Notes under the pieces: generated by a model
What the model was told of the DNA's origin: nothing
What the model saw: only the letters and a program-made list of their open reading frames with translations
Databases searched by the model: none
From: Patescibacteria group bacterium
Lineage (GTDB): Bacteria > Patescibacteriota > Patescibacteriia > Patescibacteriales > BM507
DNA length: 33,158 nucleotides
Direction: 5' to 3'
Assembly (NCBI GenBank): GCA_027858235.1
Contig: JAQIDC010000015.1
Location: 1 to 33,158 of the forward strand
Part shown: one piece after another, positions 3,747 to 20,383 of the stretch
Layout of the letters: each line of letters begins with the position of its first letter
Position numbering within the stretch: the first letter of the stretch is position 1
Made by a program: the position numbers and the translations under genes

Positions 3747-6700
3747 TCATATAAAATTCCTATTTGCAAACTCACTGTTTTCTTGATTTAGGGGTAATTT
3801 TACAGTAAATTCACTCCCAACACCTTCTTCACTTTTTACCTCGATTTTCCCGTTGTGAGCGTTAACTATCCATTTACTTATAGCAAGCCCCAAACCTGTC
3901 CCACCTTCTTCTCTTGATCTTGCTTTATCAACTCTATAAAAACGTTCAAAAATATTTGATAGGTCTTTCTCAGGGATTCCTATCCCGTTGTCTACTATTC
4001 TTACTACAGCTTCTTTATTGTTTTTATTAATATATATCTTCACCCAGCCATTTTCGTCCGTATATTTTATGGCGTTTCTAACTAAATTGATAAATATTTT
4101 GTCCAACTTAGCTTCATCTCCCTTAATAATTACTTTTTTAATAAAATACTTAAAATTTAAACTAATATTTTTCTCTCTTGCAATCACAGTCAAAGATTTA
4201 ACAACCGATTCTAAAACCTTAACAACGTCAACTTCTTCATAGTACAGTTTCTCCATTTCTGAGTCAGCGTTAGTTAGCATTGTTAATTCAGAAATTATAT
4301 GGCTCATTCTAATTATTTCATCTTCTATGTCACGATAAACTTCTAAAACATTTTCATCTTTTATTTTTTCGTCCAAAAACAATAAATCAAGATTGCCTTT
4401 CATTATTGTTAAGGGGGTTCTTAGTTCATGAGAAGCATCTGATATAAATTTTAGCTTTAGATCAAGGGCTCTGTTAAGATTTTTATTTGCTATATCTAGC
4501 TCAGATGTTCTTTGTTTTACTTTTTGTTCCAAGTCTTGATTTAAATTTTCAATTTTCTCCCTATATATTGTTGATTCCGTATTATCAACGGCCATTGATA
4601 TCGCCCCTTCTACTTTTCCGCTTCTATCAAATAATGGTGCAGCAATTAAATTCAAATATTTAATATCACCCTTTTCATTTGTCTGATAAGAAAGATTTTC
4701 GTATTTAAATGATTTTCCTCTTTTTATCAATTCTGTGTATAAAACGGTTAATCTTTTGCTATTTTTTATTTCGTTTGTAGAAACTAATTTTTTATTAATA
4801 ACACCTTGCCCCATTAATTCTTGTGCATATTTATTTAAAGAAACTATTTTACCATGCTTATCAAGCATCGCTATACTAACTGGCACATTATTCAAAACTC
4901 TATTCTTAAATTCATCTAATTTTCTAATCTCCTCTTCTGCCTCTCTGCTTTCTGTTATATTATTTATAGTGACAACGGATTGATATGCTTCATTTTTTTT
5001 ATTTTTTGTTGGTGAAATATCTATTTTATAAAAAAAGGCTTTTTTCTTAAAGATGATTTTTCTTTCTATGTGTTTAGCTTCTTTAGATTTAAAAACAGCC
5101 GTTAAAAGATCTTTCATTCCTTCCTTTTTACTTAATTCTTTTGCAAATAAATTATTTTCATATCTAGGTAGTATTTTAGAACATTTTTTGCCCTTTATTT
5201 TCTCAACCGGCAAATCAACTTTTTCTGCAAAAAACTTATTATAGCTTATAATATTTGAATTTTTATCTACTACAAAGATGCCCTCCCTTATTGAATCTAT
5301 CACGCTTATATAATGTTTTTTTGTTTCATATAATTTTTGTTCTGCTATTTTAGTGTCCGTAATATCTCTAATAATTGCCTGTACGGCTATTTTTTTTCCA
5401 TCTTTTACTATGTTAGTAAAATTAGCATCGACGAATAAAATTATATTTTTTTTAGAAACCTTAAATTCAATCTTGTGATTGCCTTTATTATCAAGAATTT
5501 CTTTAAATTTTTCATCAAATTGATTTAGATAATCTTTATGAATAATACTTCTAAGCCCATTATTTTCATTTATTTGTTTTTTGGGGAAAGTATAATAAAA
5601 TGATTGGTTCGCAAACAGTATTTCTCCATCCAAACTTAGCATAACAAACATGTCCCCTGCATTGTCAATTAGTTCTCTGTATTTTTCCTCGCTCTTTTCT
5701 AATTCTATTTTATTTTTTTCTCTATCAATAGCACTTGAAAAGATATTGGCAACTGCTTTAAAGAAATCTAGTTCAACTATATTAAATTCTCTTTTTTCTT
5801 TAAACAAAAAACGCAGAGAACCCAAAATTGTCTTGTTATGCATTAGGGGGATATAGCAAGAATTCACATTAATTAATTCATTTTTTCCAAACACATCTTT
5901 TTTTATTTTTCCTTCATATATCTCAATTTTTTTATTTAAAATTACTGTTCCAAAATTATGTGAATCCAAGGAGTCAACGCTACATGTATTAAATGCTTCT
6001 TTAGGAAAATTTTTACTTGAAAAAAATTCCAAAATTTTTTTTCCTCCTCCCGGTAAAAGCCAAATAGCACCGCTAAGATCATTCATTGCCCATGGGATAT
6101 TAATGACTCTGTTTAATAATTTTGTTAATTTTTCATCTAAACTGATATTGTTGATAGAAATTTGCATCAAGTCATTCAAAAGGGTTTGATTTTCATTGGC
6201 TTCTTTCAATTTTTTCCAAGCATTCTTTTCATTGCTTATATCCTTAATCACAACAAACCATTCTTCGTCGTTTATATATCTACCAACTTTAAGTTTTATG
6301 TTTTTTTTAACTCCATTTTTAGTTAAAACCACGGTTTCATATGTCTTTGGTGATTTTAATGAATCTTTATTTTTCAAACGATGTTTAACATAAGCATCAA
6401 TTTTATCTCTTTCTTCTTTCGAAAAAAGGGTTATATAATTCATTTGAAAAAGCTCATCTTTTGTATATCCAGAAATTTTTACAAGTGCTTTATTTACTTC
6501 AACAAACTTCTTTTTTTTACCATTCAGTATATAGAAACCTTCTTCAGCGTTCTCAAAGATATTTTTAAATTTTTCTTCAGAATCTTTTAATTCATTAAAA
6601 AGCATTAAGCTAGAAATGCTTCTAGTTGTACCCTGGACAAAATTATCCAGAAGTTCTAAATATTCTTTTTTTATTTTTGGTGACAAAAATTCAAAAAAAC

Positions 6701-7160
6701 CAATTGTTTCTCCTCTTATAATAACAGGGCAAATTATAGAATTGAATGAAATTTTGTTTAAATCTTTTGTTGTCTTGTGATAGGTCTTATAAATATCTTT
6801 CTGTCTTTCTGGAATATATTGAGCCTCTTTTTTTAAATAAGGGCTAGCAAAATAATTTTCTTTTTCTACTTTTATTTTTGTATCAAGAAAAAAATAATTA
6901 AATGATTTTCTCAGGACCTTATCTTCACTAACATCGTTTAAATATCTCACTGAGATTAAATCATTTTTATCCGAAAAAATGGTTATCAATATTGAGACAC
7001 CATTTTTTTCCATATCCTCGCCAACCAGTAGAAAGAATTCATTTAGGTTAAAACTATTTTGTTTTAGGTCTATTGTTTTTTGAAGACTCATTAAAGATTC
7101 AAGCAATGAGCCATAAAATTTATCTTTCTTGTTTTCATTTTGGAATTTTAGTAATTCCAT
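3747..7160 (-). CDS. Soluble multi-domain PAS/GAF sensor histidine kinase
   Basis: A 1137-residue sensor kinase, partner of the response regulator encoded 65 bases upstream. In order it has an N-terminal GAF-like region (about 20-185), PAS (193-312), GAF-like (325-487), PAS (493-612), PAS (616-742), PAS (745-868), a coiled-coil linker, HisKA (about 903-970) and HATPase_c (about 1010-1125). The phospho-accepting histidine is H911 in SDASHELRTPL. The N box is NLVRNAIKYT (about 1025), G1 is DNGIGIP (1057) and G2 is GGTGLGL (1086). No membrane segment is visible, so the signal is probably cytoplasmic (ligand, redox or energy state), though the ligand cannot be read from sequence. The enzyme core looks intact. 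It is very large for a reduced genome. Domain edges are judged by eye. Confidence 0.93.
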   Translation of the reverse strand: MELLKFQNENKKDKFYGSLLESLMSLQKTIDLKQNSFNLNEFFLLVGEDMEKNGVSILITIFSDKNDLISVRYLNDVSEDKVLRKSFNYFFLDTKIKVEKENYFASPYLKKEAQYIPERQKDIYKTYHKTTKDLNKISFNSIICPVIIRGETIGFFEFLSPKIKKEYLELLDNFVQGTTRSISSLMLFNELKDSEEKFKNIFENAEEGFYILNGKKKKFVEVNKALVKISGYTKDELFQMNYITLFSKEERDKIDAYVKHRLKNKDSLKSPKTYETVVLTKNGVKKNIKLKVGRYINDEEWFVVIKDISNEKNAWKKLKEANENQTLLNDLMQISINNISLDEKLTKLLNRVINIPWAMNDLSGAIWLLPGGGKKILEFFSSKNFPKEAFNTCSVDSLDSHNFGTVILNKKIEIYEGKIKKDVFGKNELINVNSCYIPLMHNKTILGSLRFLFKEKREFNIVELDFFKAVANIFSSAIDREKNKIELEKSEEKYRELIDNAGDMFVMLSLDGEILFANQSFYYTFPKKQINENNGLRSIIHKDYLNQFDEKFKEILDNKGNHKIEFKVSKKNIILFVDANFTNIVKDGKKIAVQAIIRDITDTKIAEQKLYETKKHYISVIDSIREGIFVVDKNSNIISYNKFFAEKVDLPVEKIKGKKCSKILPRYENNLFAKELSKKEGMKDLLTAVFKSKEAKHIERKIIFKKKAFFYKIDISPTKNKKNEAYQSVVTINNITESREAEEEIRKLDEFKNRVLNNVPVSIAMLDKHGKIVSLNKYAQELMGQGVINKKLVSTNEIKNSKRLTVLYTELIKRGKSFKYENLSYQTNEKGDIKYLNLIAAPLFDRSGKVEGAISMAVDNTESTIYREKIENLNQDLEQKVKQRTSELDIANKNLNRALDLKLKFISDASHELRTPLTIMKGNLDLLFLDEKIKDENVLEVYRDIEDEIIRMSHIISELTMLTNADSEMEKLYYEEVDVVKVLESVVKSLTVIAREKNISLNFKYFIKKVIIKGDEAKLDKIFINLVRNAIKYTDENGWVKIYINKNNKEAVVRIVDNGIGIPEKDLSNIFERFYRVDKARSREEGGTGLGLAISKWIVNAHNGKIEVKSEEGVGSEFTVKLPLNQENSEFANRNFI

Positions 7161-11355: not shown

Positions 11356-11913
11356 ATGTTGAGTTTAAATGAGATAAAGGTAGGGAAGGTGGTCGAAATA
11401 AATAACGAACCCTACATTATTATCAAAGCTGACCACCACAAAATGGGAAGAGGCGGAGCTGTCTTAAAGACCAAACTAAAAAATCTTATTACGGCCAGTG
11501 TTCTCGAAAAAACTTTTCAAGGTAATGACAAGGTTGCTGAAGCTGATATTGAAAAAAAGAAAGCAAACTATATGTACCATGACGAGAATGAGGCCTACTT
11601 CATGGACAATACTGATTTTGAACAGTTTAGTCTCCCCCTCGACCAACTTGGTCCTAAACAAAAGTTTTTAAAAGAAGATACCGATGTTGATGTTCTTTAT
11701 TTCTCAGGGAAAGCAGTATCAATTGACCTCCCTATCAAAATAAAATTGCTGGTAACAATGGCTCCTCCGGGAGTCAAAGGAAACTCAGCCGGAAATGTAA
11801 ACAAGCAAATTGAACTTGAGACCGGCGCTACAATAAACGCTCCTTTATTCGTTAATGAAGGAGATATAATTGTCATAAATACAGATACTGAGGATTACGT
11901 CGAAAGAGCATAA
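11356..11913 (+). CDS. efp: Translation elongation factor P
   Basis: A 185-residue EF-P with KOW-like domain I (1-63), OB domain II (65-125) and OB domain III (about 128-185). It relieves ribosome stalling at polyproline stretches. The tip loop that reaches the peptidyl-transferase centre reads HHKMGRGGAV, so the tip residue is R32, not the lysine modified by EpmA in E. coli. Arginine at this position is rhamnosylated by EarP in some bacteria and is unmodified in others. No earP or rhamnose gene is visible here. The end matches the family (EGDIIVINTDTEDYVERA). It is the last gene of the rpsF operon, followed by a strong terminator. Confidence 0.97.
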   Translation: MLSLNEIKVGKVVEINNEPYIIIKADHHKMGRGGAVLKTKLKNLITASVLEKTFQGNDKVAEADIEKKKANYMYHDENEAYFMDNTDFEQFSLPLDQLGPKQKFLKEDTDVDVLYFSGKAVSIDLPIKIKLLVTMAPPGVKGNSAGNVNKQIELETGATINAPLFVNEGDIIVINTDTEDYVERA

Positions 11914-11990: not shown

Positions 11991-12175
11991 TTCTCTTTAT
12001 CTCGAACATTGAAAAATTTTGGAGGAAAATGAAGCGTAAAAATCTCTGTAAAATATCCGCTGTTTGAGGAATGAAACGATAGTGGAATGACGAGTTCGGA
12101 ATTTTACTAGATTTTGTAGCGAAATGGTCCAAAATTTTTTCGTTCGATGTTCTTGTCACTTTTTCGAAAAAGTGA
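11991..12175 (+). repeat. Structured intergenic element, copy B (between efp and recA)
   Basis: This element fills the convergent efp-recA gap. It starts TTCTCTTTAT and then GAACATTG. The left arm GAACAT-TG-AAAAATTTTGG (12004-12022) is complementary to the right arm CCAAAATTTTT (12129-12139) plus ATGTTC (12147-12152). The element ends in a 20-base palindrome at 12156-12175 (TCACTTTTTC/GAAAAAGTGA). Inside are GTTTGAGG and AGATTTTGTAGCGAA, also found in similar form in copy A at 17.6 kb. Both copies lie in the same orientation. In both, the palindrome is nearest to the 3' end of a minus-strand gene. A further nine-pair stem (12175-12183 with 12205-12213) follows before recA. No protein coding is evident. 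A 67-codon ORF across it is probably chance. Confidence 0.65.
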
Positions 12176-12245
12176 ATTAGATTCTTGAGAGACTTAAATA
12201 CCTTAATCTAATTTATTCTTTTAGAAATCTTATCTAAAATATTTT

Positions 12246-13283
12246 CTATTCTTCGTTTTCCTTGCTCTTGGCTTCAGTTAATATTTTCTTTCTAATCTCT
12301 TTCATTATTTTTTTGTCAGCTTTTAAAAATCGTTTTGCCGTTTCTCTCCCAAGCCCCAATTTTATATCTTCAAACGAATATGAATTACCTGATTTTGTGA
12401 TCACGCCATAAGATGTTCCTAGGTCAAGCAAATCTCCTGCAATAGATATTCCTTCATTGTACATAATATCAAATTCGCAAGACTTAAATGGAGCGGCTAC
12501 TTTATTCTTAACTACTTTACATTTAATCCTATTGCCTATTATTTTATCGGCTTGTTTAATTTGGGCTGACCTTCTTACTTCAATTCTGAGGGAAGCATAA
12601 AATTTTAGAGCATTTCCACCAGTTGTAGTTTCTGGATTGCCAAAATATACTCCAATTTTCATCCTTATTTGATTTATGAATATAACAACAGTTTTTGATT
12701 TAGCAATAACCCCTGTAAGTTTTCTTAAAGCTTGGCTCATTAGTCTAGCTTGTGCTCCCATTTGAGCATCACCCATATCTCCTTCAATCTCTTTTTGAGG
12801 AACAAGAGCGGCTACACTGTCTATAACGATAACATCAACAGCATTCGACCTCACAAGTGTCTCAACTATTTCGAGGGCTTGCTCACCCGTGTCTGGCTGA
12901 GAAATTAGCATCTCTTTTACATCAATTCCAATTTTAGAAGCATATTCTGGGTCAAGAGCATGCTCAGCATCTACAAAGGCTGCAATCCCTCCAAGTTTTT
13001 GAGTTTCAGCAACTATATGTTGAGCTAAAGTAGTTTTACCAGATGATTCTGGCCCATAAACCTCAATTATTCTCCCCCTTGGGACACCGCCTATTCCCAG
13101 GGCCATATCTAGAGACAAGCATCCAGTTGGGATAGCGTCTACATTTACTTTCCTTGTTTCACCAAACTTCATAATAGCGCCTTCACCAAATTTTGTTTTT
13201 ATTTGTTCCATGGCAGAATCGGCAGCTTTTTTCTTTTCGCTGAGTTCCGCAGTATCATTTTTCGTACTTTTATCAGTTTTCAT
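12246..13283 (-). CDS. recA: Recombinase RecA
   Basis: A 345-residue RecA of normal length. Walker A is GPESSGKT (residues 77-84), Walker B is [10 protein letters not shown], and the DNA-binding loops L1 ([18 protein letters not shown]) and L2 ([18 protein letters not shown]) are intact, as is the [10 protein letters not shown] segment. It polymerises on ssDNA, catalyses strand exchange and may trigger SOS cleavage, although no lexA is visible here. The frame is open 18 codons further upstream (to an ATG at 13337), but the added residues ([17 protein letters not shown]) do not match RecA, so I chose the ATG at 13283. An AGGGAGGA lies far upstream (about 13323-13331) with no suitable start next to it. 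It is last in the comM-SBP-pilin-rodZ-like-recA run. Confidence 0.97.
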
Positions 13284-13369
13284 ATATTTTATTAATTTTA
13301 AACAATAAAAAAAGAGTCTACTATCCTCCCTTAACATAAGGATATCTTATATTTAATTTAAAGGCAACA

Positions 13370-15903: not shown

Positions 15904-17424
15904 TCAAGCATTTTTCGCTCTATATTGGAGAGCCTCGACAACATGTTCTTTTAAAACATTTTTGCTATTATCTAGGTCAGCTATAGTTCTAGCTATTTTT
16001 AATATTCGAAAATATGCTCGAGCAGATAAATGTAGTGAGTTAGCAGCTTTTTTGAGAATTGCTTTAGTATCCTCATCAACAGGGCAATATTCTTTAATTG
16101 AGTTTGAGCTCATCTCAGAATTTGACTTATAGTTTGTATCCTTAAATCTGGTGGTCTGAATATTTCTAGAAGATTGAACTCTCCTGCGAATAATCTCTGA
16201 ATCTTCCTCATCATTTTGAGAAGATAATTTTTCAAAACTAATTCTTGGAACTTCAACATGAAGATCAATTCTATCAAGAATGGGACCTGATATTTTTTTC
16301 TTATAATTCATTACTTGCGAGGCGGAACAGATGCATTCTTTTTCGCTATCACCAGAATAACCGCAGGGGCAAGGGTTGGTAGCAGCTACTAAAACAAATT
16401 TTGAGGGAAAAGAAACACTTCCTGAAGCTCTACTAACATTAACTATCCCGTCCTCCAATGGTTGCCGAAGATTTTCTAAAACTGAACGAGAAAATTCTCC
16501 AAATTCATCCAAAAACAAAACACCCCTATGTGCAAGAGAGATTTCCCCTGGTTTTGGCCAAACACCACCACCTACAAGAGAAACACCAGAAGAGGTGTGG
16601 TGAGGCGATCGAAATGGTCTAGTCTTGGCCACTCCATTTCGAAAATTTAGTTTTCCTGAAACACTATATATTTTCGTTACTTCTAGAGCTTCATCGTTTG
16701 TCATCTCAGGTAATATTGACGGTATCGTTCTAGCCAACAATGTTTTACCTGAACCAGGAGGTCCACTCATTAATATATTGTGTGAACCAGCCGCAGCTAT
16801 CTCCATTGCCCTTTTTGCAAACGATTGCCCTCGAATATGAGCCATATTAAAAACACCATCTTCCTCTTCTGATTTGAAATCTTGTCTTTCACTTTTCTCA
16901 ATCATCTTCCCACTGTTCAAATGATTGACTACATCAACTAAGTTTTTTACACCAAAAATATTCAGCCCTGGAACCAAAGAAGCTTCAAAAACATTTTCAC
17001 TAGAAACAAAGATATTTTTAAATCCCTTTTCACGGGCAAGAAGTGCAATAGAAAGAGTCCCATTCACCGAACGTAAAGCACCCGACAGGGCAAGTTCTCC
17101 TACAAATAAGCTATTAGCCAAAAATTCAGAAAATTTAATCTTATTAGTTGCGAGCAATATACTGATAGCAATGGGCAAGTCGTAACCAGGTCCTTGTTTT
17201 TTAATATCGGCCGGTGCCAAATTGACGGTTGTCTTCACGCGAGGAAATTGCAAACCAGAATTTTTAATAGCACTCCTAACTCTTTCTTTGGATTCAGAAA
17301 CAGCCGTATCAGGTAAACCAACAATAGCCACCATCCCAAAATCGCCCCCACCCATATCAGCCTCAACTTCAACTAATTCAGCATCAAGCCCAAGAACCGC
17401 TGCAGAATATATTTTTGATGACAT
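15904..17424 (-). CDS. comM: ComM/YifB-family AAA+ ATPase (Mg-chelatase-like)
   Basis: A 506-residue protein of full family length. An N-terminal ribosomal-S5-like domain (about 1-165: VEVEADMGGGDFGMVAIVGL, LAPADIKKQGPGYDLPIAI) is followed by the AAA+ core. Walker A is GPPGSGKT (about 221-228), Walker B is GVLFLDEFGEF, and NPCPCGYSGDSEKECICS carries a probable zinc-binding cysteine cluster. The C-terminal domain has LSARAYFRILKIARTIADL. ComM is a hexameric helicase that extends branch migration during natural transformation, and the homologue in CPR genomes is usually interpreted the same way. It is first in the run that ends with recA and includes a pilin, which fits a DNA uptake and recombination theme. 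There is no Shine-Dalgarno. Confidence 0.93.
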   Translation of the reverse strand: MSSKIYSAAVLGLDAELVEVEADMGGGDFGMVAIVGLPDTAVSESKERVRSAIKNSGLQFPRVKTTVNLAPADIKKQGPGYDLPIAISILLATNKIKFSEFLANSLFVGELALSGALRSVNGTLSIALLAREKGFKNIFVSSENVFEASLVPGLNIFGVKNLVDVVNHLNSGKMIEKSERQDFKSEEEDGVFNMAHIRGQSFAKRAMEIAAAGSHNILMSGPPGSGKTLLARTIPSILPEMTNDEALEVTKIYSVSGKLNFRNGVAKTRPFRSPHHTSSGVSLVGGGVWPKPGEISLAHRGVLFLDEFGEFSRSVLENLRQPLEDGIVNVSRASGSVSFPSKFVLVAATNPCPCGYSGDSEKECICSASQVMNYKKKISGPILDRIDLHVEVPRISFEKLSSQNDEEDSEIIRRRVQSSRNIQTTRFKDTNYKSNSEMSSNSIKEYCPVDEDTKAILKKAANSLHLSARAYFRILKIARTIADLDNSKNVLKEHVVEALQYRAKNA

Positions 17425-17467: not shown

Positions 17468-17483
17468 TCCTCCTTGTTTTTAA

Positions 17484-17530
17484 TCCCTTCTTGAGAGGGG
17501 TGCCGAAGCAGGGCGTAGGTGGGGTGTGTT
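17484..17530. repeat. GC-rich dispersed-repeat-like segment upstream of comM
   Basis: The segment has a sharply higher GC content than its surroundings and contains TTGAGAGGGGTGCCGAAGC and GGTGGGGTGTGTT. It resembles short dispersed repeats with 'CCCTCTC...GGGGTGTGTT' composition that I associate with several bacterial genomes. No other copy lies in this window, so repeat status is an inference. Confidence 0.35.
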
Positions 17531-17559
17531 TTTACATTAAAACTTCCTTATTTTTCTTT

Positions 17560-17732
17560 TTTCTCTTTGTGAACATTGAAAAATTTAGAATAAATTAAAT
17601 TTATTTCGAAATTCGCCAAAAAATGCTCATGTTTGAGCGAAGCGAGTTTGAGATTTTTTGAGTGAATTATCGTAATAAAAATATTCTAAATTTTTTCAGT
17701 GAACGTTTTTGGTACTTTTTCTAAAAAAGTAC
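17560..17732 (+). repeat. Structured intergenic element, copy A (between smc and comM)
   Basis: Same architecture and orientation as copy B at 12 kb. It begins TTCTCTTTGT and then GAACATTG. The left arm TGAAAAATTTAGAATA (17577-17592) pairs with TATTCTAAATTTTT-T-CA (17682-17698, one bulged T). The interior has GCTCATGTTTGAGC and GTTTGAGCGAAGCGAGTTTG, and AGATTTTTTGAGTGAA. The end is a hairpin, GTACTTTTT-CTA-AAAAAGTAC (17712-17732). In this copy the inner arm is TAGAATA/TATTCTA where copy B has TTGG/CCAA, and the outer pairs of the final hairpin differ too, yet pairing is kept. The final hairpin lies 12 bases after the smc stop codon and could act as its terminator. Confidence 0.65.
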
Positions 17733-17743
17733 ATAGAAAAGTC

Positions 17744-20383
17744 TTATTGTTTATCAACAGCCTTAGCCTCCTCCAGTTTAACAGAAAGCAATTTAGATAC
17801 TCCATCATCCCCCATAGTCACTCCGTAAAGAATACTAGCCCTTCGCATTGAAGCCCTATTATGAGTAATAACTATAAACTGAGTTTTATGAGATAGGTCA
17901 TCCAAAATTTCAGCCAACCTTTCAGAATTTGCTTCATCTAGAGCTGCATCAACCTCATCCAAAACTACAAAAGGTGATGGGTTGGCAGAAATTATAGCAG
18001 AAATAAGAGCAATAGCGGTCAAGGCTCTCTCTCCTCCGGACAACATAGAAATAGAAGAAATCTTCTTCCCTGGAGGTGTCGCCTGTATCTCAATGCCGGC
18101 TAGCCCAGTTGCATTATGTTTTTGTAAAAATTTAATTTTCTTAGCATCAATTGCTGATTTAAAAACTACTTCTTTTTTTTCTTCCTCTTCCCCCTGCCCT
18201 GAGCTTGTCGAAGGGTCTTCGTCTTTTTCCATAACTTTAATAATACGAGCCTTCCCTCCACTAAACAAAATTTTAAAATACTCTTCAAATTTAGTTTGAA
18301 TTATTTTGAATTCTTTATCAAAAATTTCCTTAATCGTAATATCTAATTCTTTAATTATTTTTTCAAGTGAACCAATGGCATCGACCAAATCGGTGACTTG
18401 CCCGGATATAAAATCGTACCTTTCCTTTGTGCTAATAAATTCATTTTCAACTTCTGGATCAATCCCCCCAATATGTTCTAGATGTTTTCTGGTGTTTGAA
18501 ATTTTATTTTTTAGTTCTTCAAGTTCAACATGTCCCTCGGCTCTAGTGTCACGAACTTCACGCATACCCCCAAGGTTTTGTCTTATTTCTACTTCCAGGT
18601 CCTCTAGCTTAGTTTCTCTTCTGGTTGCATTAATCTTGACCTCATTTAATTTATTTGTGATGATATTAATCTCGTTTTGTAAAGATTGAATGCTTCTCTG
18701 TAGGGAAAAAAGCTTACTTCTCTTTTCTTCTTCAGCCTGTGATATATTCTCAATCTTTTTCTTAACTTCGTTAATTCTAGAATCAACTGTCTGTAATTCT
18801 AAACTAAATTTATTAAGAGCCTCAGCTATTTCACTACTACTCAACTTGTTAGCACTTTGATCTATTCGTTCTTTTAGAGAACTCAATTCGTTTTTTAGTT
18901 GACTTAATTTTTCCTTTTTCAAAGAGGCTCTTTCTCTCTTTGAGGCAACTAGTAAATTTATTTCCGAAACGCGAGACAATACCACCTCTTTCTCTTCTAT
19001 ATATTTATTAATCATTGCTCTTGCTTCTGACAAAAACTTCACCTTTTCTTCATCATCTTCGTCGGTGGAAACTACTTTTTTTAAATCATTCTTTATTTGT
19101 ACTAATATCTCTTTTACTTTTGCAAAGTCTTCACTTTCCTCAGCCTCTTTCAGTTTATTAAGAACCGAGTTAATTATATTTTTAATATCATCGCCGTCTT
19201 TATTTTTCGGGGATGATGAAAAAGAAAATATCCTATTATTGATATCGTTTATCTTTTTATCTAGCTCTCTTTTTTTGTTACTAAACTCTTCTAGACCCTG
19301 AGATTCTTTCCCGGCCTCAGTATCTGCAAATAAAATTTCTTCTTCCAATGACTCAATTTCTTTTTTCATGTCCGAAACTCTCCCTGTCAAAAAAGACAAA
19401 TCAAATTGGCCCCTAGACTCTAAATCAACTTCATTTTCAACCTCGAGCCTAGCTATCTTTTTATTCAAATCATTTTTCTCAATTTGTAGTTTATTTAAAT
19501 CTCTTTGCAATTGATTAAACTCTTCACTCACAGTATTTTCAGATTCCAAAACAGCTAAATTTTGGTTCAATTTTTTCATTGAATCCTCTTTGGTGTTTTT
19601 TTCTTTTTCAATTTCCAAATACCTTTTATTGAAATCTGAAAATTCATCGTTTATCTTGTGCCAAGTGTTTCTGTAATATACCAAGCTCAAACTTCTCAGC
19701 TCTTTTTCAAGTTCTTCTTTTCTCTGAATTTTATTAACCTGCCTAGTAAGACTTTTTAGTCTTGGCTCAATTTCAACCAAAATCATTTCCGCTTGATTTA
19801 GATTTTCATAGCTGGCTTTCAGTTTATTTAAAGCGTCATCTCTTTTTATTTGAAATTGTTTTACTCCAGTTGCTTCATCAAAAAATTCCTTACGCTCAGA
19901 AAGAGAAGCGCTTAAAAACCCCTCAACTGTTCCTTGCCCAATAACTGAATATGTCTTTTGACCAAACTTTGCCTTTGCGAGGAGCATCTGCACATCTGAC
20001 AATCTAACACGACTATTGTTTATTAAATACTCACTATCTCCATTTCTAAAAAGTCTCCTAGTGATAACTAATTGAGAATAATCAATTGGGGCTTTTCTGT
20101 CTTCATTGTTTAGATGAAGAGAAACTTCGGCCATTCCCAGCTTGCCTTTCTTGTCAGAACCCGAAAATATCACATCTTCACTTTTCTTGCCACGCAAGGA
20201 TTTCATACTTTGCTCACCAAGAGCCCAACGTATAGCATCGGCCACATTAGATTTACCAGAACCATTAGGTCCAACAACTGCCGTTAAGCCTCTTTTGGTG
20301 TCATTAAGCATACCAACAAAAGTTAGTTCATTTTTGTTAGCAAATGATTTAAATCCTTGGACTGATAGCTTTTCTAAATACAT
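17744..20383 (-). CDS. smc: Short, apparently hinge-less SMC chromosome-segregation ATPase
   Basis: An 879-residue SMC, against about 1180 in typical bacteria. The N-terminal head has Walker A GPNGSGKS (38-45) and the following VADAIRWALGEQS. The C-terminal head has signature LSGGERALTAIALISAI and Walker B/D-loop FVVLDEVDAALDEANSERL. Between them are two coiled coils. The globular hinge of about 150 residues is not visible. At the midpoint (about 390-455) there is instead a short helical stretch (DIKNIINSVLNKLKEAEESE, then FAKVKEILVQIKNDLKKVV) flanked by polar linkers. Near residue 725 an insert, PSTSSGQG, is encoded by a palindromic dispersed repeat. It loads onto DNA to organise chromosomes. 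No scpA/scpB is in the window. The reading frame is intact. Confidence 0.93.
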   Translation of the reverse strand: MYLEKLSVQGFKSFANKNELTFVGMLNDTKRGLTAVVGPNGSGKSNVADAIRWALGEQSMKSLRGKKSEDVIFSGSDKKGKLGMAEVSLHLNNEDRKAPIDYSQLVITRRLFRNGDSEYLINNSRVRLSDVQMLLAKAKFGQKTYSVIGQGTVEGFLSASLSERKEFFDEATGVKQFQIKRDDALNKLKASYENLNQAEMILVEIEPRLKSLTRQVNKIQRKEELEKELRSLSLVYYRNTWHKINDEFSDFNKRYLEIEKEKNTKEDSMKKLNQNLAVLESENTVSEEFNQLQRDLNKLQIEKNDLNKKIARLEVENEVDLESRGQFDLSFLTGRVSDMKKEIESLEEEILFADTEAGKESQGLEEFSNKKRELDKKINDINNRIFSFSSSPKNKDGDDIKNIINSVLNKLKEAEESEDFAKVKEILVQIKNDLKKVVSTDEDDEEKVKFLSEARAMINKYIEEKEVVLSRVSEINLLVASKRERASLKKEKLSQLKNELSSLKERIDQSANKLSSSEIAEALNKFSLELQTVDSRINEVKKKIENISQAEEEKRSKLFSLQRSIQSLQNEINIITNKLNEVKINATRRETKLEDLEVEIRQNLGGMREVRDTRAEGHVELEELKNKISNTRKHLEHIGGIDPEVENEFISTKERYDFISGQVTDLVDAIGSLEKIIKELDITIKEIFDKEFKIIQTKFEEYFKILFSGGKARIIKVMEKDEDPSTSSGQGEEEEKKEVVFKSAIDAKKIKFLQKHNATGLAGIEIQATPPGKKISSISMLSGGERALTAIALISAIISANPSPFVVLDEVDAALDEANSERLAEILDDLSHKTQFIVITHNRASMRRASILYGVTMGDDGVSKLLSVKLEEAKAVDKQ
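18197..18215. repeat. Palindromic dispersed repeat inside smc (encodes PSTSSGQG)
   Basis: CCCTGAGCTTGTCGAAGGG reads, on the minus strand, as CCCTTCGACAAGCTCAGGG and translates in-frame as PSTSSGQG with the adjoining bases. This sequence and its peptide are a widely seen short repeat in bacterial genomes. Here it interrupts an acidic loop (KDED...EEEEKK) near the start of the C-terminal head. Confidence 0.7.

Follow-up and report, generated by a model that had tools for sequence, protein, structure and literature searches.

Phylum-wide intergenic hairpin repeats with covarying stems in Patescibacteria

Analysis of a 33,158-nucleotide stretch of a Patescibacteria group genome (hereafter the window) confirms that two of its intergenic elements, one next to recA and the other next to smc, are members of one family of hairpin repeats of about 170 nt. 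The family is phylum-wide and previously unnamed, as judged from Rfam 15 and the open-access papers searched. Its most probable nature is that of a non-autonomous, mosaic palindromic repeat resembling BIME/REPIN or MITE elements, which, we infer, is copied or moved as hairpin DNA; the likeness concerns its manner of working rather than membership of either class. To our knowledge, Patescibacteria have tiny streamlined genomes with few described mobile repeats. One family that can be recognised across classes of the phylum, its bubble and end motifs conserved on freely varying stems, suggests that a shared, undescribed enzyme acts on hairpin DNA (or that an undescribed RNA is involved), and its motifs and covariance model make the idea of such an enzyme or RNA testable.

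Distribution and anatomy of the family

The original prediction had singled out two look-alike structured elements, with stems that pair in both despite different bases. Both points stand: TTCTCTTT is present at 11991 and 17561, GAACATTGAAAAATTT at 12004-12019 and 17571-17586, and AAATTTTTTC is common to both copies, while the stem arms read TTGGA/TCCAA versus TAGAATA/TATTCTA between the two copies and the end hairpin is closed by TCAC/GTGA in copy 1 and by GTAC/GTAC in copy 2 (Table 1). The AGATTTT part of the proposed common core, on the other hand, is not homologous, since its place in the stem is not the same in copy 1 and copy 2; the true shared core is the tip, TGTTTGAG...CGAGTT. A covariance model (R1) was built from 16 seed sequences, drawn from the window's own genome (G000; 1.43 Mb, 72 contigs) and other genomes of the order, with the recA copy included and the smc copy left out; it recovers the smc copy at an E-value of 1.5e-11, far beyond chance.

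The further copies that had been anticipated in related genomes were found. A DNA search of the window's genome gives a dozen relatives, and R1 gives 13 matches there, 12 of them at E <= 4e-5. Across the order, R1 has about 108 matches in 24 of 111 genomes, the other 87 being without a match. Detected copies per positive genome range from 1 to 18, with 11-18 in the window's genome, G009 (the 'bacterium' MAG DBS2-1.bin63), G015, G039 and G068. Among 380 genomes drawn evenly across the phylum, R1 yields weaker matches in 13, the window's own among them. Most of the matches inspected (L286 and L304 excepted, whose locus flanks were cut short of the element) combine the same tip and right end with unrelated stems, for example TTTGTTTGAGAGAAGCGAGTTAA and GCCGCGATTTTTGCTCCACTTTTTCTAAAAAAGTGG, and include divergent relatives in other classes; three matches of this draw (L289, L290, L307) are without the standard tip. 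Public genomes matched by an exact pattern include the Patescibacteria group MAGs STD1_31 and STF1_116. Copies within one genome are mostly 72-92% alike, and therefore do not reflect very recent transposition.

That no named family was known for the element is likewise borne out: an Rfam 15 scan of the window has zero matches at gathering score, the loci of four copies searched by E-value give only matches far below it, and the open-access papers searched hold no account of such a repeat in Patescibacteria. Hence, a described Rfam family was rejected as its identity. Two further candidates were set aside, namely carriage by viruses, as viral contigs have no match to three exact end-motif patterns, and a DNA-uptake-type motif, as the tip with a 4-base loop, present at 0-2 places per genome in the 7 genomes searched, is not dispersed through them.

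The element consists, in order, of the following parts: a left motif (consensus GCGAGCAT; window form GTGAACAT), a nested long hairpin (P1 and P2) with an unpaired tip, a right motif (GCGATTTTTG) and a short hairpin, P3 (CCACTTTTT..AAAAAGTGG). The P1 and P2 stems are highly variable in sequence with their pairing kept. In the genome-weighted consensus, the left end reads GCGAgCATtgAAAAATTT; the tip is TGTTTGAg...cGAGTTtg, unpaired and often with a variable small hairpin; and the right arm is followed by GCGaTTTTTg and then by P3, ccaCTTTTT..AAAAAAGtgg. The conserved positions are GCGAGCAT, TGTTTGAG/CGAGTT and GCGATTTTT. Additionally, 54 of 109 copies have an exact repeat of the left hexamer at their right end, versus about 14 with shuffled partners; the repeat is direct in 18 of them, inverted in 26 and, the hexamer being self-complementary, both in the other 10. 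Reduced versions consist of P1 and P3 without P2 and the tip (L053, L227, L185, L171).

Table 1. Coordinates of the two window copies, their neighbouring genes and three copies with a second repeat inside them elsewhere in the same genome
Feature	Position	Strand	Remarks
EF-P	11356-11913	+	
Copy 1 (recA copy, type A), whole element	12000-12179	+	between EF-P and RecA; CM R1, 158 bits, E 8e-25, model 1-176; seed member
Copy 1 left conserved motif CGAACATTG (family consensus GCGAGCAT)	12003-12011	+	most positions strongly conserved among genomes
Copy 1 P1 outer stem, left arm AAAATTTTGGA	12013-12023	+	partner 12128-12138; helix 1: 94% of cells paired
Copy 1 P2 inner stem, left arm	12034-12059	+	partner 12097-12120; helices 3-6: 83-96% of cells paired
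Copy 1 unpaired tip, left half TGTTTGAG	12061-12068	+	87-100% conserved across genomes, fixed positions
Copy 1 unpaired tip, right half CGAGTT	12091-12096	+	GAGTT 92-100% conserved, fixed positions
Copy 1 P2 inner stem, right arm	12097-12120	+	partner of P2 left arm
Copy 1 P1 outer stem, right arm TCCAAAATTTT	12128-12138	+	partner of P1 left arm
Copy 1 P3 terminal hairpin TCACTTTTTCGAAAAAGTGA	12156-12175	+	helix 7: 97% of cells paired, 8/8 pairs with double changes
RecA	12246-13337	-	
Mg-chelatase/ComM-like	15904-17424	-	
Copy 2 (smc copy, type B), whole element	17567-17736	+	between SMC and Mg-chelatase/ComM-like gene; CM R1, 83 bits, E 1.5e-11, outside seed
Copy 2 left conserved motif GAACATTG	17571-17578	+	
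Copy 2 P1 left arm AAAATTTAGAATA	17580-17592	+	partner 17682-17694
Copy 2 tip, left half TGTTTGAG	17630-17637	+	
Copy 2 tip, right half CGAGTT	17643-17648	+	
Copy 2 P1 right arm TATTCTAAATTTT	17682-17694	+	partner of P1 left arm
Copy 2 P3 terminal hairpin GTACTTTTTCTAAAAAAGTAC	17712-17732	+	
SMC	17744-20383	-	
Copy holding ~95-nt second repeat (L011)	G000:C28:43791-44066		
Copy holding ~95-nt second repeat (L012)	G000:C38:16482-16763		
Copy holding ~95-nt second repeat (L219)	G000:C55:32883-33161		

Sites, composites and nested repeats

The element is gained or lost between species. In a congener (G001), the EF-P/RecA and ComM/SMC neighbourhoods are conserved and the proposed check for empty sites in relatives finds the element absent at both, an absence that could represent loss; five further genomes likewise have no element in the 3' regions of RecA and SMC. 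At other places, the element lies between the same genes in related genomes (G000/G001, G041/G060 and G061/G064), sometimes with a different stem subtype. Further, copies form composites: in G027 (the 'bacterium' MAG WY3.bin75), two different subtypes are joined head-to-head in one and the same pair that is present four times, and G069 has head-to-head and G068 tail-to-tail pairs.

Both window copies had been placed just 3' of a minus-strand gene, and the recA and smc flanks agree with this. Across the family, this placement is a statistical tendency confined to the right end, which points towards the neighbour's 3' end in a ratio of 56:22 (p 1.5e-4), as against 40:36, i.e., no preference, for the left end (paired copies excluded from both counts; the ORFs follow a simple longest-ORF rule, and single cases may be wrong). 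This bias may reflect an insertion preference, tolerance or a 3'-end function. The genes beside copies are varied and housekeeping in nature; no recombinase or other gene recurs beside copies in the fetched loci, and a recurrent neighbour gene was accordingly rejected as the mobilizer. Among 98 copies there is no signal of a target-site duplication (flank common-substring score 3.47 versus 3.46 shuffled). The same copies give no signal for insertion into hairpin loops as a rule, complementary flanks being confined to the f20 subgroup (G047/G060/G061/G062). The f20 copies (L213, L214, L215, L225, L226) are without P3 and their palindrome continues outward into the flanks, as if an older hairpin or terminator had received them in its loop.

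Many copies have other palindromic repeats nested in the tip, stem or right end. A second repeat of ~95 nt (CCCGCCTGGCTCGAAGTTAAC...GTTAACGCCATTTCGGACAGGT) occupies the same internal position in three copies of the window's genome (Table 1). Some G015 and G039 elements (L146, L172, L174) hold the palindrome CACCCCTCTCAAGAGGGGA...GGGGTGTG inside their right end, and it is found near L219; this other widespread palindromic family is also present at window 17482-17532, just left of the smc copy. Several unrelated genomes (L006, L018, L169, L184, L193) have a short palindrome, CCTGCCTGCCGGCAGGCAGG, inserted in or near the stem or between P3 and the right arm, and in five copies of the window's genome (L006, L012, L018, L053, L219) the P3 loop is exchanged for a longer conserved sequence (TGCCCGA..GACAAAATGCCCTTGGGGTGAAAA).

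Covariation and the choice between RNA and DNA

The original prediction read the base changes in the stems as compensatory and as a sign of selected structure, and would have fallen had further copies or compensatory pairs been lacking in a larger alignment; both are present. When 17 copies are aligned by MAFFT alone, 11 of 26 predicted pairs have double changes. In the alignment of 109 copies fitted to the covariance model, 92.6% of cells are paired and all 37 pairs have double changes, with 682 double-change cells as compared with 164 (sd 15) after shuffling, and the covariation score is 0.449 versus 0.135 shuffled and <= 0.090 when slid by 1-3 columns. The fitted alignment is biased towards structure, with the effect size and the unfitted MAFFT result in agreement; P1 counts were taken from it because some rows of the MAFFT alignment have the right arm of P1 out of place. 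Selection or maintenance of the stem structure is thus strongly supported. Further, the long hairpin and the end hairpin fold in both window copies, the smc copy much better than its shuffles as RNA (z -5.2 on the + strand, -4.8 on the - strand) and the recA copy moderately so (z -1.9 and -2.5 on the two strands).

RNA tolerates an intermediate G-U but not the mirror C-A, and a comparison of the two is a straightforward check on whether RNA or DNA underlies a covarying structure. The element stems have 80 G-U and 65 C-A among 3720 cells, whereas a small benchmark of 33 tRNAs from three of these genomes, adopted since the order gave no small SRP RNA match, has 24 and 7 among 561; the difference gives a Fisher p of 0.027 with all cells and 0.19 without the weakest helix positions. 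Because G-U barely exceeds C-A, and both strands of the two window copies fold about equally well, a palindrome maintained as DNA more than as one-strand RNA is favoured, which is suggestive rather than proof. As regards the SRP RNA itself, Bacteria_small_SRP (RF00169) has matches in none of the 111 genomes of the order versus 11 of 14 control genomes, and the SRP RNA of the order may be of another type or divergent.

An RNA, a MITE-like element and a transcription-stop module had all been proposed, and of these a mobile or repeat DNA palindrome is now favoured. The main rival is an RNA or 3'-end role, in which the element would act in transcripts as a 3'-UTR stabiliser, as a processing or termination module of the gene facing P3, or as a small RNA. 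We consider this unlikely, even though it would account for the strong covariation and the right-end bias, and the + strand hairpin followed by a T-run (GCGATTTTTG after P1) does resemble an intrinsic terminator. However, the element is far larger than such a terminator and has a conserved sequence at its tip and ends, and the lack of orientation bias on its left side argues against a + strand terminator of the upstream gene. The one terminator-like site that a consensus scan finds lies in the smc copy, on its - strand, the recA copy having no match; in the recA/EF-P gap an ordinary hairpin-plus-T-run terminator is already visible by eye. The low wobble excess, the near-equal folding of both strands, the vacant sites of the congener and the absence of an Rfam match also speak against this role.

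Mode of spread and likeness to known systems

The reading as a DNA repeat is preferred because the element is multicopy, has empty orthologous sites, forms composites and shows almost no wobble excess. Points that weigh against it are the lack of a target-site duplication and, in the loci covered, of an autonomous element or linked recombinase, the element-rich genomes with no Y1/RAYT gene, a wobble deficit that loses significance on the best-paired subset, the chance that the congener lost its copies and the limited likeness of copies within a genome. Fixed ends (GCGAGCAT; GCGATTTTTG with P3) and a fixed unpaired tip flank and top stems that are free in sequence as long as they pair. Under this reading, the element would spread, or have its sequence rewritten, in the form of hairpin DNA that is single-stranded or cruciform; an enzyme acting in trans would recognise the end motifs and might also read the unpaired tip, and copies would survive mainly where they are harmless, with P3 towards a gene's 3' end. 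More tentatively, the family might constitute a new, Patescibacteria-specific class of hairpin-DNA mobile element, in which a trans-acting recombinase reads the bubble (TGTTTGAG/CGAGTT) and the end motifs and the stems are rewritten by fold-back synthesis. Such rewriting would renew the stem sequence and leave its pairing almost perfect.

A host DNA site kept as a palindrome, for instance a binding site of a nucleoid, gyrase or replication/recombination protein, is a doubtful alternative. Conserved bubble motifs that stay unpaired in a palindrome able to form a cruciform, and the element's persistence between orthologous genes in the three genome pairs named above, are consistent with such a site; the strong variation in copy number (0 to 18 per genome), the many genomes of the order without a match and the lineage-specific positions are not.

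REP/BIME/REPIN elements are palindromes of about 20-40 bp tagged with GTAG or CGTC (PMC3733652), usually at more than 100 copies per genome (PMC2817692). Our family resembles them in its intergenic, non-coding, multicopy palindromes, its lineage-specific subfamilies and its mosaic composites of alternating orientation (head-to-head in G027 and G069, tail-to-tail in G068), and differs from them in its length of ~170 nt, nested stems and conserved unpaired tip. Despite the similar mosaic arrangement, membership fails because its ends are without the GTAG/CGTC tag, its detected copy number is far from such values and Y1/RAYT genes are not associated with it. Mobilisation as a REP/BIME element by RAYT (Y1) transposases is very improbable: the window's genome does have 11 Y1_Tnp matches and the head-to-head composites would fit, but none of these Y1 genes is flanked by the element, the nearest lying ~400 bp from a copy on contig C28; the element-rich G039, G068, G069, G027 and G085 have no Y1_Tnp match; and its presence is not associated with that of the element (15/24 versus 40/87 genomes, Fisher p 0.17). 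Together, these observations largely rule it out as a general mechanism.

With MITEs, the element shares its short, non-coding, palindromic and multicopy character and its presence or absence at a given site between species, empty orthologous sites being found at the recA and smc 3' regions in the congener and the five other genomes. It differs in having no target-site duplication, and in stems that change wholesale between subfamilies while the ends and tip persist. As regards terminal inverted repeats shared with an autonomous transposon, an imperfect palindrome is present, and no autonomous partner was found in the fetched loci or beside Y1 genes, in a survey that covered Y1 among the transposase families. 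Integron attC sites are comparable as hairpin DNA with conserved structure, a few conserved unpaired bases and free stem sequence; the element, in contrast, has an extra hairpin (P3) and no R''/R' boxes (RYYYAAC...GTTRRRY), cassette arrays or adjacent integrase. The attC candidate was rejected since the consensus, by inspection, is without core boxes and no neighbour gene is recurrent.

Two genes in the window are of separate interest. The SMC reading frame (17744-20383, -) encodes 879 aa, and those of six other genomes of the order 879-903 aa, whereas SMC elsewhere is usually ~1180 aa. A histidine kinase of 1137 aa (3747-7160, -), which combines several PAS domains with a GAF domain, is unusually elaborate for a small Patescibacteria genome.
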